From assembly GCF_002210345.1 (NCBI RefSeq), contig NZ_MWQI01000001.1, positions 248,001 to 312,000 of the forward strand: 64,000 bases of DNA, in the 5' to 3' direction. The DNA comes from Fibrobacter sp. UWB4. GTDB lineage: Bacteria; Fibrobacterota; Fibrobacteria; Fibrobacterales; Fibrobacteraceae. Below, one piece after another: positions 8,486 through 42,312 of this stretch (position 1 is the stretch's first letter; every line of letters starts with the position of its first letter). The translations under genes and the position numbers were made by a program. A model generated the notes under the pieces. The model made no database searches, had not been told where the DNA came from, and saw nothing but the letters and a program-made list of their open reading frames with translations.

Positions 8486-8641
8486 TTCGAGCGGGAACGG
8501 GTTTGATTCGTCGTCAGTCTCCGCTAACGCGGCTGACTCCTCACCCTAACGGGCTTATCGCTTGCGCGATAATTCCAAAATTCGCTCTTCGGACTTCGTC
8601 CATGATCGAATTTTGTCGAACCCTCTTCTCGGGTTCTCGAC
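8486..8641. repeat. Palindrome-rich tandem unit, copy A (207-bp period)
   Basis: About 156 bases nearly identical to 8693-8848, offset by 207. Each copy contains successive inverted repeats: GTCAG/CTGAC, TTATCGC/GCGATAA, AAAATTCG/CGAATTTT and GAACCC/GGGTTC. Between the copies lies a separate terminator-like hairpin. No convincing reading frame runs through it. This is the main content of the 500-base gap between the HAD gene and tRNA-Gly. Confidence 0.8.
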
Positions 8642-8651
8642 CTTATTTACG

Positions 8652-8695
8652 AATAAAAGCAAAAACGACACCATAAAGGTGTCGTCTTTGCTTTC
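8652..8695 (-). terminator. Terminator-like hairpin between repeat units
   Basis: ACGACACC, loop ATAA, then GGTGTCGT, flanked by A-rich and T-rich arms (AAAGC/GCTTT) that extend the stem. Its position after copy B on the minus strand mirrors the hairpin after tRNA-Gly. Confidence 0.55.
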
Positions 8696-8848
8696 GAGCG
8701 GGAACGGGTTTGATTCGTCGTCAGTCTCCGCTTGCGCGGCTGACGACTCACCCTAACGGGCTTATCGCTTGCGCGATAATTCCAAAATTCGCTCTTCGGA
8801 CTTCGTCCATGACCGAATTTTGTCGAACCCTCTTCTCGGGTTCTCGAC
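8693..8848. repeat. Palindrome-rich tandem unit, copy B
   Basis: Second copy of the 207-bp-period unit. It differs from copy A mainly in loops (GCTTGCGC against GCTAACGC) and in GACGACTCA against GACTCCTCA. It lies between two terminator-like hairpins, and on the minus strand directly follows the tRNA-Gly terminator. Confidence 0.8.
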
Positions 8849-38424: not shown

Positions 38425-39585
38425 TTATTCTTCGTCGCCAATGCGCTTTGCCGTCGGCAACTTGTCACGTAAAATTTCGTTCCAGATATTTTGTTGCCAA
38501 TGCATCAAGTGAGCTTCTTCGTAGCGCTTTTCCCACGGGATGTTCCCCGGGGCAGCAAGCCAGATCAGCTGAGACTTGTTCGCAAGGAGCGCTGCATCGA
38601 TTTTCAGCTCTTCGGCTTTTTCGTCACGCCACGTCTTGAGTGCGTTGAGCAAGTCCGAATGTGGGATGACTGGCGGTGGTGGAGCCTTCGGGAGGCGCAT
38701 CGGCCAATCGCATTCCGGGACGGCCACAGCTGTGCGCAGCATGTTCAGGAACGAATCTAGACGGTCGCCCTTGAAATTGCGGGGGAGCTTTGGCAGGAAC
38801 GTTTCGCTGACTTCCGGGAAATGCGAATTCTGGGCGTTTACAATCGCAAGCATCAGCTCGGACTGCATCACCTTATAAGGCGGACGGTCGAGTTCTTCGG
38901 CTTGCTTTTCACGCCATTCCCACAAGTGCTTGAGAATGTTCAATGCGCAGGGGCCATAAATGCTGGAACCCGTAATGCGCCACGGATCTTTTTTCGGGGC
39001 GTTCGGGGTCCTTGCGTGTTCGATAAGCGTGTTGCACTGCTCCGTAAGCCAGTTCATGCGACCGGCCTGTTGCAGTTTTTCAGCTAAAATGGCACAAAGT
39101 TCGTGAAGGTAGAACGTATCGTGGATGGCGTATTCGCACATGTCCAGCGAAAGTGGTCGAATCGTCCAGTCGGCTCTCTGGTTTTCTTTCTTGAGCTCGT
39201 CGCCAAAATATTCCTTGACCAAATCGGCAAGCCCGAGGTGCTGTTCGCCCAGAAGCTTCGCGGCAAGCATCGTGTCGAAAATGCTCTTCGGCGAAAAGCC
39301 GTAAGTCTGCCACAAAAGTCTGAGGTCGTAATCTGCACCATGGAAAATCAGCGTCTGCATTGCCCGCGCCTTGAACAGCGGTGCAAGGTCCAGCCCACAA
39401 AGCGGGTCCACAATATAATGGTGTTCGCCAATGGTAATCTGGATAAGACAGAGACGAGCCGTGTAATGGTACATGGAATCCGCTTCGGTGTCGACTGCGG
39501 CCATGTCATAGAGTTCCAAATCTGCAAGCAAGTTTGCGAGCGATTCTTCACTATCTACCAATATGTATTTCTCGTCTTTAATCAT
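38425..39585 (-). CDS. rnd: Ribonuclease D
   Basis: A 386-residue 3'-5' exoribonuclease for tRNA and stable RNA ends. DEDDy catalytic residues are visible: AAVDTEADSM (Asp-x-Glu), FHGADYDLRLL, and YAIHD (Tyr-x3-Asp). Two HRDC domains follow, the first at about 215-290 (LKHLWEWREKQAEELDRPP) and a second at about 310-375. Length matches E. coli RNase D. The cyclo-ligase gene follows on the same strand. Upstream is the direct-repeat-flanked nuclease gene on the other strand. Confidence 0.95.
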   Translation of the reverse strand: MIKDEKYILVDSEESLANLLADLELYDMAAVDTEADSMYHYTARLCLIQITIGEHHYIVDPLCGLDLAPLFKARAMQTLIFHGADYDLRLLWQTYGFSPKSIFDTMLAAKLLGEQHLGLADLVKEYFGDELKKENQRADWTIRPLSLDMCEYAIHDTFYLHELCAILAEKLQQAGRMNWLTEQCNTLIEHARTPNAPKKDPWRITGSSIYGPCALNILKHLWEWREKQAEELDRPPYKVMQSELMLAIVNAQNSHFPEVSETFLPKLPRNFKGDRLDSFLNMLRTAVAVPECDWPMRLPKAPPPPVIPHSDLLNALKTWRDEKAEELKIDAALLANKSQLIWLAAPGNIPWEKRYEEAHLMHWQQNIWNEILRDKLPTAKRIGDEE

Positions 39586-39726
39586 TTGACAAGGAAATGT
39601 AATAAAAGAAAACGATAGCGCGCTATTTTTCCCCCGAATTTACCCCAACACGGCACTTTCCCCGTGTAAGTGTGCGTTTGCGCACAAAAAAGTCCTGTTA
39701 ACGATGAATTTTTTTGAAAAAGTGCA

Positions 39727-39989
39727 TTTTTTACGTCAAAAATGAGTTGTGCAAATCGATTTTGACGTAAATTTTGATACAAATTAATCAAATTTGCTTC
39801 TGAAATAGGCATTTTTTTGAGTTTTGATGAGCAGAATTGATTCGTCCGCTTCCAAAAAGAACCTATTTGAGGTGGCTTGGGGGCGTTTTTTGCGGAAAAA
39901 TAGAATTTTGTTACGAATAAACTAAAGATTTTACGTAAGATTTTGAATTTTTTGTGTTTTCTGACGTAAAAAGCGGCGTTTTTTCAAAA
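39727..39989. repeat. 263-bp direct repeat, left copy
   Basis: Close match to 40981-41244, in the same orientation, roughly nine bases in ten identical by eye. It includes the inverted pair TACGTCAAAA/TTTTGACGTA, the pair GAAATAGG/CCTATTTGA, and two more ACGTAA sites. A/T-rich and not coding. Confidence 0.9.
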
Positions 39990-40112
39990 TCAGCAGTTTT
40001 ATTGTTTGTTAATTTGTATATTAAACAGGTTCTTATATCTTTTCTTATATCCTTTTTAAATTGTTTCTTTTATGAAAGCTCGTATAGCCAATTAGGATGG
40101 CGAGGATATTTA

Positions 40113-40934
40113 ATGAACAATCTGAAAATGGATGTCTCTGTTGATTGCATCTTGTCTCAGGCTCAAAAACGTATCGATGAACTTCAGCAAGTTATCGAGT
40201 TCCTGCAAAAACAATTGGAAAAAGCCCCAGAAGGATCCCTTTATGGTACAAGTAGTCATTTCCAGTTGCAATGGCAGCGTATTATAGGTGAAAAACGTAT
40301 TTATTTGTCTGGCGGAAAATCGAAATTGATTAAAGCTCTTGCGCAAAAAAAGTACAATGCTTTGCTCCTCGAGGATTTTAAGCGCCAAAGGAAAGCTTTG
40401 GATAAACTGATAAAAAGTTATGTTCCGCAAAATGGCGAAAGAACGTATATGTCCATGAGCGAAAGATGGCGAAAGCAAATTGAACCATTGAATATCCCGG
40501 ATTCGGAATATGTTGATTTATGGCAGAGCTTGCGTTATAAAGGAAAATCTGTTGAAAATACAGGACTTTGGACTTCAAAAGGGGAGTGCGTTCGCTCTAA
40601 ATCGGAAATCATAATTGCTGATGTCTTAGCAAGTCTGGGGGTTCCATATCGCTATGAGTTTCCGCATAAGTTGAAAAACGTAGATTCCTCTCGCTGCATC
40701 GAAGTATATCCAGATTTTACTTGTTTGAATGTCCACACCCGCAAGGAGTTCGTGTGGGAGCATTTTGGAATGATGGATGATGCTGAATATGCCTGTAATG
40801 CTGTTGCGAAAATAGAAATGTATCTGAACAGCGGGTATTTTTGGGGCGACAATCTCATATTTACTATGGAAACTCACGAGAAACCTTTAAATTCGAAAAT
40901 CGTGCGAATTTTAGCCCAAAAATATTTGGTGTAA
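40113..40934 (+). CDS. Putative PD-(D/E)xK-type nuclease of unknown function
   Basis: A 273-residue protein. The N-terminal half is coiled coil and helical (SQAQKRIDELQQVIEFLQKQ). The C-terminal half resembles a restriction-endonuclease fold: SKSEIIIADVL (Glu), EVYPDFTCLN (Asp) and EFVWEHFGMMDD (Glu-x-x-x-His). I recall similar proteins in gut and rumen Firmicutes, all without assigned function; that is memory, not a search. The start is ATG 40113 with GAGGATATTTA upstream; the frame is open further upstream but enters the direct repeat. It is the only gene between two 263-bp direct repeats and is A/T-rich. Confidence 0.7.
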   Translation: MNNLKMDVSVDCILSQAQKRIDELQQVIEFLQKQLEKAPEGSLYGTSSHFQLQWQRIIGEKRIYLSGGKSKLIKALAQKKYNALLLEDFKRQRKALDKLIKSYVPQNGERTYMSMSERWRKQIEPLNIPDSEYVDLWQSLRYKGKSVENTGLWTSKGECVRSKSEIIIADVLASLGVPYRYEFPHKLKNVDSSRCIEVYPDFTCLNVHTRKEFVWEHFGMMDDAEYACNAVAKIEMYLNSGYFWGDNLIFTMETHEKPLNSKIVRILAQKYLV

Positions 40935-40980
40935 ATAAACTAATTTATAGCGCTGCGGTATTGATTCACGATTTTGGTCG

Positions 40981-41244
40981 ATTTTTACGTCAAAAATGAG
41001 CTGTGTGAATCAATTTTGACGTAAATTTTGATACAAATTAATCAAATTTGCTTCTGAAATAGGCTTTTTGGGGATTTTGATGGGCAGAATTGATTCGTCC
41101 GCTTCCAAAAAGAACCTATTTGAGGTGGTTTGGGGGCGTTTTTTTTGCGGAAAAATAGAATTTTGCTACAGACAAACTAAAGATTTTACGTAAGATTTTG
41201 AATTTTTTGTGTTTTCTGACGTAAAAAATGGTGTTTTTTCAAAA
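40981..41244. repeat. 263-bp direct repeat, right copy
   Basis: Right partner of 39727-39989. It lies just upstream of trpS, so it may be the original trpS upstream region, with the left copy made when the nuclease gene arrived. Confidence 0.9.
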
Positions 41245-41303
41245 CAGCTTCTTTTCCGGCAGTTTTATCGTGCTTGAGGTGCTCGCTGGGCTTGAAATTT
41301 TCC

Positions 41304-41316: not shown

Positions 41317-42312
41317 ATGAGAAAGATTTCACTTACCGGTATCAAGCCGACGGGCACTCCCCATCTCGGCAACTATGTGGGCGCAATCCGCCCGGCTCTT
41401 GAACTTACGAAGACTTACGACACGGTCTATTTCATTGCGGACTATCACGCTTTGACGACTGTGCAGAACGGCGCCGAAATGCGTGCGAACATCTACAAGG
41501 TCGCAGCGACTTGGCTTGCTCTCGGTCTCAATCCGGAAGAATCCCTGTTCTACAAGCAGAGCGATATTCCTGAAATCTTTGAACTTAGCTGGGCTCTCAG
41601 CTGCTTCACGCCGAAGGGCTTCATGAACCGTGCCCACGCCTACAAGGCTAAGGTCGAAGCCAACACCGCCGCTGGTGTTGATGTGGACTCTAACGTGAAC
41701 ATGGGCCTTTACTGCTACCCGTGCCTCATGGACGCCGACATCCTCATGTTCAGCGCCGACATCGTGCCGGTGGGCAAGGACCAGAAACAGCACGTCGAAT
41801 TTGCTCGCGATATCGCCATCAAGTTCAACAAACATTTTGGCGAAGACGTGTTCACCGTCCCGGAACCGGTTTTCCAGGAATCCACCGGTGTCATCCCGGG
41901 TCTTGACGGACGCAAGATGAGCAAGTCCTACGACAACTACATCGACATCTTCCTCGAACCGAAGGCTCTCAAGAAGCGTCTCGGCAAGATTGTGACGAAC
42001 TCCCAGGGCATCGAAGAACCGAAGGATCCGGATACTTGCAATGTGTTTAAGTTATACAAGCTCTTTGCAACGCCGGAACAGACCGAAGCTCTCGCAGCCC
42101 GCTACCGTGCAGGCGGCATGGGCTGGGGCCACGCCAAGCAGGAACTTCAGAATGTTCTCGAAGAGCATCTCGGTGCCGCTCGCGAAAAGTACTTCTACTT
42201 GCTCGACCATACCGACGAAATTGAAAAGATTCTCGCTTACGGTAAGGAACGCGCCCGCGCCAAGGCCAAGGTCATGATGGACAAAGTTCGCCATCTGTTA
42301 GGGACTTACTAG
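41317..42312 (+). CDS. trpS: Tryptophanyl-tRNA synthetase
   Basis: A 331-residue class I aminoacyl-tRNA synthetase that charges tRNA-Trp. The HIGH-type motif is TPHLGNYVG near residue 13 and the KMSKS motif is GRKMSKSYDN near 200. Length is normal for bacterial TrpRS. ATG 41317 follows a TAAATT box at a 7-base distance, so a leaderless transcript is likely. Terminator at 42334. Confidence 0.95.
   Translation: MRKISLTGIKPTGTPHLGNYVGAIRPALELTKTYDTVYFIADYHALTTVQNGAEMRANIYKVAATWLALGLNPEESLFYKQSDIPEIFELSWALSCFTPKGFMNRAHAYKAKVEANTAAGVDVDSNVNMGLYCYPCLMDADILMFSADIVPVGKDQKQHVEFARDIAIKFNKHFGEDVFTVPEPVFQESTGVIPGLDGRKMSKSYDNYIDIFLEPKALKKRLGKIVTNSQGIEEPKDPDTCNVFKLYKLFATPEQTEALAARYRAGGMGWGHAKQELQNVLEEHLGAAREKYFYLLDHTDEIEKILAYGKERARAKAKVMMDKVRHLLGTY

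Follow-up and report, generated by a model that had tools for sequence, protein, structure and literature searches.

A putative nuclease paired with phased palindromic arrays at the trpS locus of Fibrobacter and in other gut and rumen bacteria

Introduction

In Fibrobacter sp. UWB4 a single gene lies between two long direct repeats in the interval from rnd to trpS, and its form raises the question of what kind of element it is and what the repeats are to the gene. The window, meaning the whole stretch of 64,000 nucleotides that was analysed (G000:C1:248001-312000, where G000 is the Fibrobacter genome carrying it), had previously been interpreted from its letters and open reading frames. That sequence-only reading proposed a candidate mobile or self-excising cassette with a nuclease-like product, whose repeats contain inverted pairs that the nuclease could recognise. 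Here we compare the locus with its relatives, and ask whether it is a lone cassette that moves or excises itself, or a part of something more widespread.

Results

Layout of the interval

The repeats, put at 263 bp by the sequence-only reading, are real: they measure 262-263 bp each and are 92.2% identical over 269 aligned bases (E=1e-110; Table 1). Each is built of two palindromic modules of 41-42 bp, 200-201 bp apart, and these are the inverted pairs that had been noticed. The nuclease-like gene, with an SD-like GAGG ahead of its ATG, is the only gene between the repeats and is A/T-rich as claimed (39% GC vs 47% for the window). The repeats also adjoin trpS, which starts about 70 bp beyond the end of the right copy. 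We agree that the interval contains no transposase or recombinase, and an Rfam search gave no match. Elsewhere in the window, in the intergenic stretch at 8576-8822, an inverted-repeat block (CAAAATTCGCTCTTCGGACTTCGTCCATGAYCGAATTTTG) occurs twice in nearly identical form with a distance of 207 bp, apparently an unrelated direct repeat.

Table 1. Features of the rnd-trpS interval (window positions) and solo elements of the same genome (contig positions)
Feature	Position	Strand	Basis or remark
rnd	38425-39585	-	Pfam
Stretch missing where the rnd-trpS site is empty (G046 and similar genomes)	39687..41291 (approximate ends)	.	
Upstream repeat, an array element with two palindromic modules	39728..39989	.	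repeat alignment
Upstream copy, module 1: TTTACGTCA-N24-TGACGTAAA, 42 bp	39730..39771	.	palindrome and pattern search
Upstream copy, module 2: TTTACGTAA-N23-TGACGTAAA, 41 bp	39930..39970	.	200 bp (19 helical turns) past module 1
Gene of nuclease-like protein, 273 aa, without Pfam or NCBIfam family	40113..40934	+	
Codons of residues 39-66: sheet of three strands with a long helix on either side, proposed to read the arm	40227..40310	+	AlphaFold2; Mantel test
Codons of residues 150-273: PD-(D/E)XK-like domain	40560..40931	+	AlphaFold2, weak PDB matches, conserved residues
Downstream repeat, second array element	40982..41244	.	repeat alignment
Downstream copy, module 1	40984..41025	.	palindrome and pattern search
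Downstream copy, module 2	41185..41225	.	palindrome and module-spacing analysis
trpS	41317-42312	+	Pfam
Solo elements in G000	C1:204578, C1:1181332, C5:83662, C5:155339, C6:18197, C6:56953, C6:156471		

The trpS site in related genomes

Related genomes show this site in three states. Neither gene nor repeat is found between rnd and trpS in G046 (where the gap is 126 bp), G001, G045, G042, G022 or G054, and the gene occupies the trpS site in G000, G069, G066, G067, G061 and G007. The third state, one repeat and no gene, is what recombination between the repeats had been predicted to leave, and it occurs in G071, whose sister genome G007 carries the full repeat-gene-repeat arrangement. Compared with G007, the diagnostic positions on the left of the G071 element are of the upstream type and those on the right of the downstream type, and the switch from one to the other falls in an identical stretch of about 24 bp (CAAACTAATGAAATTACGTGAAAA), part of which is an arm. 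To judge from this hybrid make-up, the solo copy in G071 arose by recombination of the flanking repeats with each other, and because the gene stands at the trpS site in the six genomes named above, we infer its loss rather than its gain. The switch lies within the longest block common to both repeats, so ordinary homologous recombination suffices, and excision by the nuclease itself is unsupported. In most cases the two flanking copies of a species resemble each other more than they resemble those of other species, and so have been homogenised or re-duplicated.

Modules of another type, TGGACTCC, are found to either side of trpS in G030 (L279, 3012-4390) and directly downstream of trpS in G032 (L278, 1223-1445), so the trpS region draws arrays of other specificities.

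The protein

The 273-aa protein belongs to no Pfam or NCBIfam family, and a sequence search of the PDB gave no match. Its AlphaFold2 model (70-row alignment, pLDDT 91) comprises a helix at residues 11-37, strands at 42-65, a second helix at 67-102 and a C-terminal alpha/beta domain. A fold search of the PDB returned weak matches that include many PD-(D/E)XK enzymes, none at E<=0.001, and the N-terminal domain alone had no significant match. E165, D201, E216 and H217 are invariant in 70 relatives and K233 is nearly so; the lysine of the (D/E)XK motif is off its usual place, with EH followed by K233 further on. The C-termini of PADLOC PDC-S68 proteins, which are RecD-like helicases, match that of our protein at 6e-23, and helicase-IV-like proteins carry the domain as an insertion. 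The modelled C-terminus therefore resembles a PD-(D/E)XK-like domain, in line with the restriction-like fold first proposed for it. One of the RecD-like helicases, a 1213-aa protein encoded at L269 446-4087, ends in the same nuclease domain and is a candidate defence gene of the PDC-S68 type.

A family of gene-array pairs

What had been taken for a lone cassette belongs to a large family in which such a gene is paired with an array. The protein has relatives at 583 or more loci in the species genome set, with up to eight in one Fibrobacter genome; their hosts are gut and rumen bacteria of three phyla (Bacillota among them), including Fibrobacter, Treponema, Lachnospiraceae, Clostridiaceae, Ruminococcaceae and others. 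Counting as an array two or more modules that share an 8-bp arm and lie no more than 700 bp from the gene, we find arrays at 40 of the 77 gene loci examined, against 0 of 77 when shuffled and 1 among 129 segments taken from distant parts of those contigs; the other 37 relatives have fewer than two same-arm 8-bp modules by that criterion. The arm word is specific to the gene (TGCTACTAAA, TGGGTACCAAA, GGCGGTGGAAA, TACCGGCAAAA, ACATACGAAA, TTACTTACTG and ACGGATAAA, among others). Most arrays lie upstream of the gene (43 vs 13), and modules precede the gene in most relatives with arrays and flank it in others. No relatives of the protein were found in the viral contigs searched, which suggests that the nuclease-like gene is not common phage cargo. 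A paralog in G071 and G007 (L273, L275) has eight TACGTACT modules around the gene, some upstream and some downstream.

Solo copies and dispersed modules

The repeat recurs elsewhere, as the sequence-only reading had thought worth checking: DNA and pattern searches of G000 place it at seven further sites, all intergenic and all without the gene. Exact modules number 11 in this genome, and the reversed control pattern has none; within solo elements the modules are 189-190, 198-201 or 210 bp apart, which amounts to 18, 19 or 20 helical turns. In exact-pattern searches of 80 Fibrobacter genomes, the ACGTCA module occurs in seven, and these include all six genomes with the gene at 60% identity or more (Fisher p 2e-8, for genomes that are related and so not independent, and many or most of which are MAGs). 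Dispersed copies were verified for three further arm words. Most genomes with the paralog of the TGCTACYAAA word have 6-17 such modules each, Treponema bryantii has nine ACGGATAAA modules (four at the gene and five solo), and a Ruminococcaceae MAG has 21 TTACTTACTG modules; neither of the latter two words forms a module in the three other genomes searched.

The elements adjoin unrelated genes (trpS, mnmE, metF, metG, tRNA-Gln). Several are in divergent intergenic regions, and some lie between convergent genes or past terminators. Close species differ by whole arrays, which are entirely there or entirely missing. Homing or active transposition is unsupported: solo copies are old and diverged and occupy the same sites across species, we saw no fresh insertion, and alignment of occupied with empty sites at four loci resolved no target-site duplication, the intergenic flanks being too diverged. 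G071 retains 22 intact ACGTGA modules, their cognate gene was not found in that genome, and we read this as recent gene loss.

Arms that change with the nuclease

Among solo elements at the same site in different species, the arms are 97-100% identical outside one position, and the remaining columns are 55-82% identical. Detection bias does not account for this conservation, since intact arms are present in all 13 same-site elements that were detected through their internal sequence and not through the arms. The one variable position alters jointly in both arms (C..G, G..C or A..T), and its letter differs by genome: ACGTCA in G000, ACGTGA at most sites of G007 and G071, and predominantly ACGTAA in G066 and G067. 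The match to the core is imperfect, as ACGTCA solos persist in G007 and cores are mixed in G066, G067 and G069. Across these genomes the arm letter switches at most sites together with the nuclease version present locally. Each site keeps its internal sequence, which argues that arms were altered in place and not through the copying of elements. In a Mantel test, arm similarity correlates most closely, if weakly, with the three-strand region of the protein (rho 0.16, p 0.0015); for the nuclease domain p is 0.14. Because the inverted pairs change with the protein they are likely its recognition sites, much as had been suggested at the outset.

Module anatomy

Neighbouring modules are strongly phased to the helix, with centre-to-centre distances giving a Rayleigh R=0.83 and z=71 at 10.5 bp (103 distances in 56 arrays) and clustering at 52, 64, 74, 84, 95, 105, 136, 147, 158, 168, 190, 200 and 211 bp. 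Given these multiples of 10.5 bp, the modules look like docking sites on double-stranded DNA. Their A+T content follows a bending pattern: it is 84-90% at the centre and +-9 but about 33% at +-5. Their spacers show no self-complementarity beyond that of shuffled ones. Together, the phasing, the A+T pattern and the non-complementary spacers speak for proteins that would sit on one face of bent double-stranded DNA. We rejected an RNA hairpin or type III antitoxin (the repeat folds with z=-2.4, yet its spacers are non-complementary and its spacing helical), and attC/integron-like single-strand sites on the same two grounds.

Discussion

Association, co-occurrence and co-variation across the genomes compared tie the nuclease-like gene to its array, and from this pairing we infer binding, cutting and a cellular function or benefit. 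With moderate confidence we explain the locus as a two-part system, made up of a putative sequence-specific PD-(D/E)XK-type nuclease and a cognate array of palindromic double-stranded DNA sites. The N-terminal helix-sheet-helix domain would read one arm, and two protomers would hold one palindrome. Two to eight modules on one DNA face could then build up a larger complex, and there the nuclease would nick or cut array DNA. Repair off another array copy may in turn duplicate arrays, place the gene between two copies or remove it. As with RAYTs and REPINs, the array population would be kept while its nuclease is present, being useful or selected, and would decay once the gene is lost.

A less likely alternative is that the protein regulates genes or shapes DNA architecture with a nuclease fold that does not cut, in which case the dispersed arrays would be operators or anchors and the gene-proximal array would serve autoregulation. 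Helical phasing, arms conserved in situ that change in parallel as in a regulon, and arrays that are intergenic, in several cases divergent, and mainly upstream of the gene (the 43 vs 13 above) would all suit such a protein. It sits poorly, however, with catalytic-type residues that stay invariant in 70 diverged relatives, with adjacent genes as unrelated as those listed above, with elements between convergent genes or after terminators, and with arrays wholly present or absent in close species. We consider it improbable that the protein is a toxin-like nuclease which arrays in the chromosome restrain by acting as decoys: harm to the cell from any mismatch with the nuclease would account for selection on every arm and for array loss where the gene is absent, but G071 retains its arrays without the gene, and gene and arrays can vanish together without trace. 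That an ordinary dispersed MITE-like repeat flanks an unrelated gene by chance is highly improbable, for although inverted repeats, intergenic copies and presence or absence between species would all fit, the association recurs with different arm words in many relatives from three phyla, gene and word co-occur genome-wide, and the arms are conserved.

The nearest analogue of our two-part system is the REPtron (RAYT/TnpA-REP), in which palindromes specific to a nuclease lie on both sides of its gene, and REP/REPIN copies are non-autonomous, intergenic, vertically retained over long times and fewer in genomes without the gene (PMC8266576, PMC8049555, PMC3116915). Here too, the gene stands beside cognate palindromes, non-autonomous copies are dispersed in intergenic space, long retained and fewer where the gene is missing, and the palindrome co-evolves with its enzyme and appears specific to it. 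In contrast to the RAYT, an HUH/Y1 tyrosine transposase of the IS200/IS605 kind, the enzyme here is PD-(D/E)XK-like. REP palindromes act as single-stranded hairpins, whereas the sites here are phased double-stranded modules of 33-45 bp with non-complementary spacers and varied arm words lacking the GTAG/CTAC tetranucleotide; genomes here carry a few to about 20 modules each and several orthogonal pairs. The best reading is that the nuclease-array pair may work like a REPtron by analogy without being one, since the enzyme is unrelated and the site is of a different nature.

Other known systems share less. PDC-S68 and helicase-IV-like proteins have the PD-(D/E)XK-like domain in common with ours (E, PDF and EH.G motifs), but they are helicases of 1000-1200 aa, whereas here a small helix-sheet-helix domain is present and no helicase. 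MITEs and insertion sequences likewise form intergenic repeats with inverted ends that are present or absent between relatives; here, however, the interval has no DDE transposase, no target duplication is resolved, and the sites change in place to fit the nuclease. Homing endonuclease genes resemble ours as nuclease genes set between copies of a sequence that the protein may recognise, but ours lies outside any conserved gene or intron and has repeated arrays as its candidate sites.

No prior description of a nuclease-array system was found in the literature searched, which covered few subscription papers, so the system is apparently undescribed and its novelty provisional. On balance we lean towards a new class present in at least three phyla, in which a nuclease of the PD-(D/E)XK type, having a DNA-reading domain of a new kind, would maintain and recombine its own scattered and phased palindrome arrays, with many specificities distinct from one another and with sites that follow the enzyme in place. 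If so, bacteria would have a second, independently evolved way to keep a cognate palindrome population beside RAYT/REPIN, which would allow explanations for the persistence of these populations to be tested. The arm words that nature has paired with protein sequences offer data at hand for working out a DNA-recognition code, in a fold for which we found no solved relative. In-place switching of sites at many loci also poses the question of what benefit selects each site.

The TGCTAC-type pair adds some minor observations. At a second paralog in G000 (L009, C1:333010-333795; 42% identity) the TGCTAC arms have decayed in part, and a search of that genome for exact dispersed TGCTACYAAA modules gave none. 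Where the paralog of this type was lost in G001, the left breakpoint falls exactly at the first module, which is suggestive only. In G069, two TGCTACC-type arrays about 83-85% alike and 1.78 kb apart (L287, G069:C6:61300-65300) surround two small lipoprotein-like genes and not a nuclease, and are thus arrays with other cargo.
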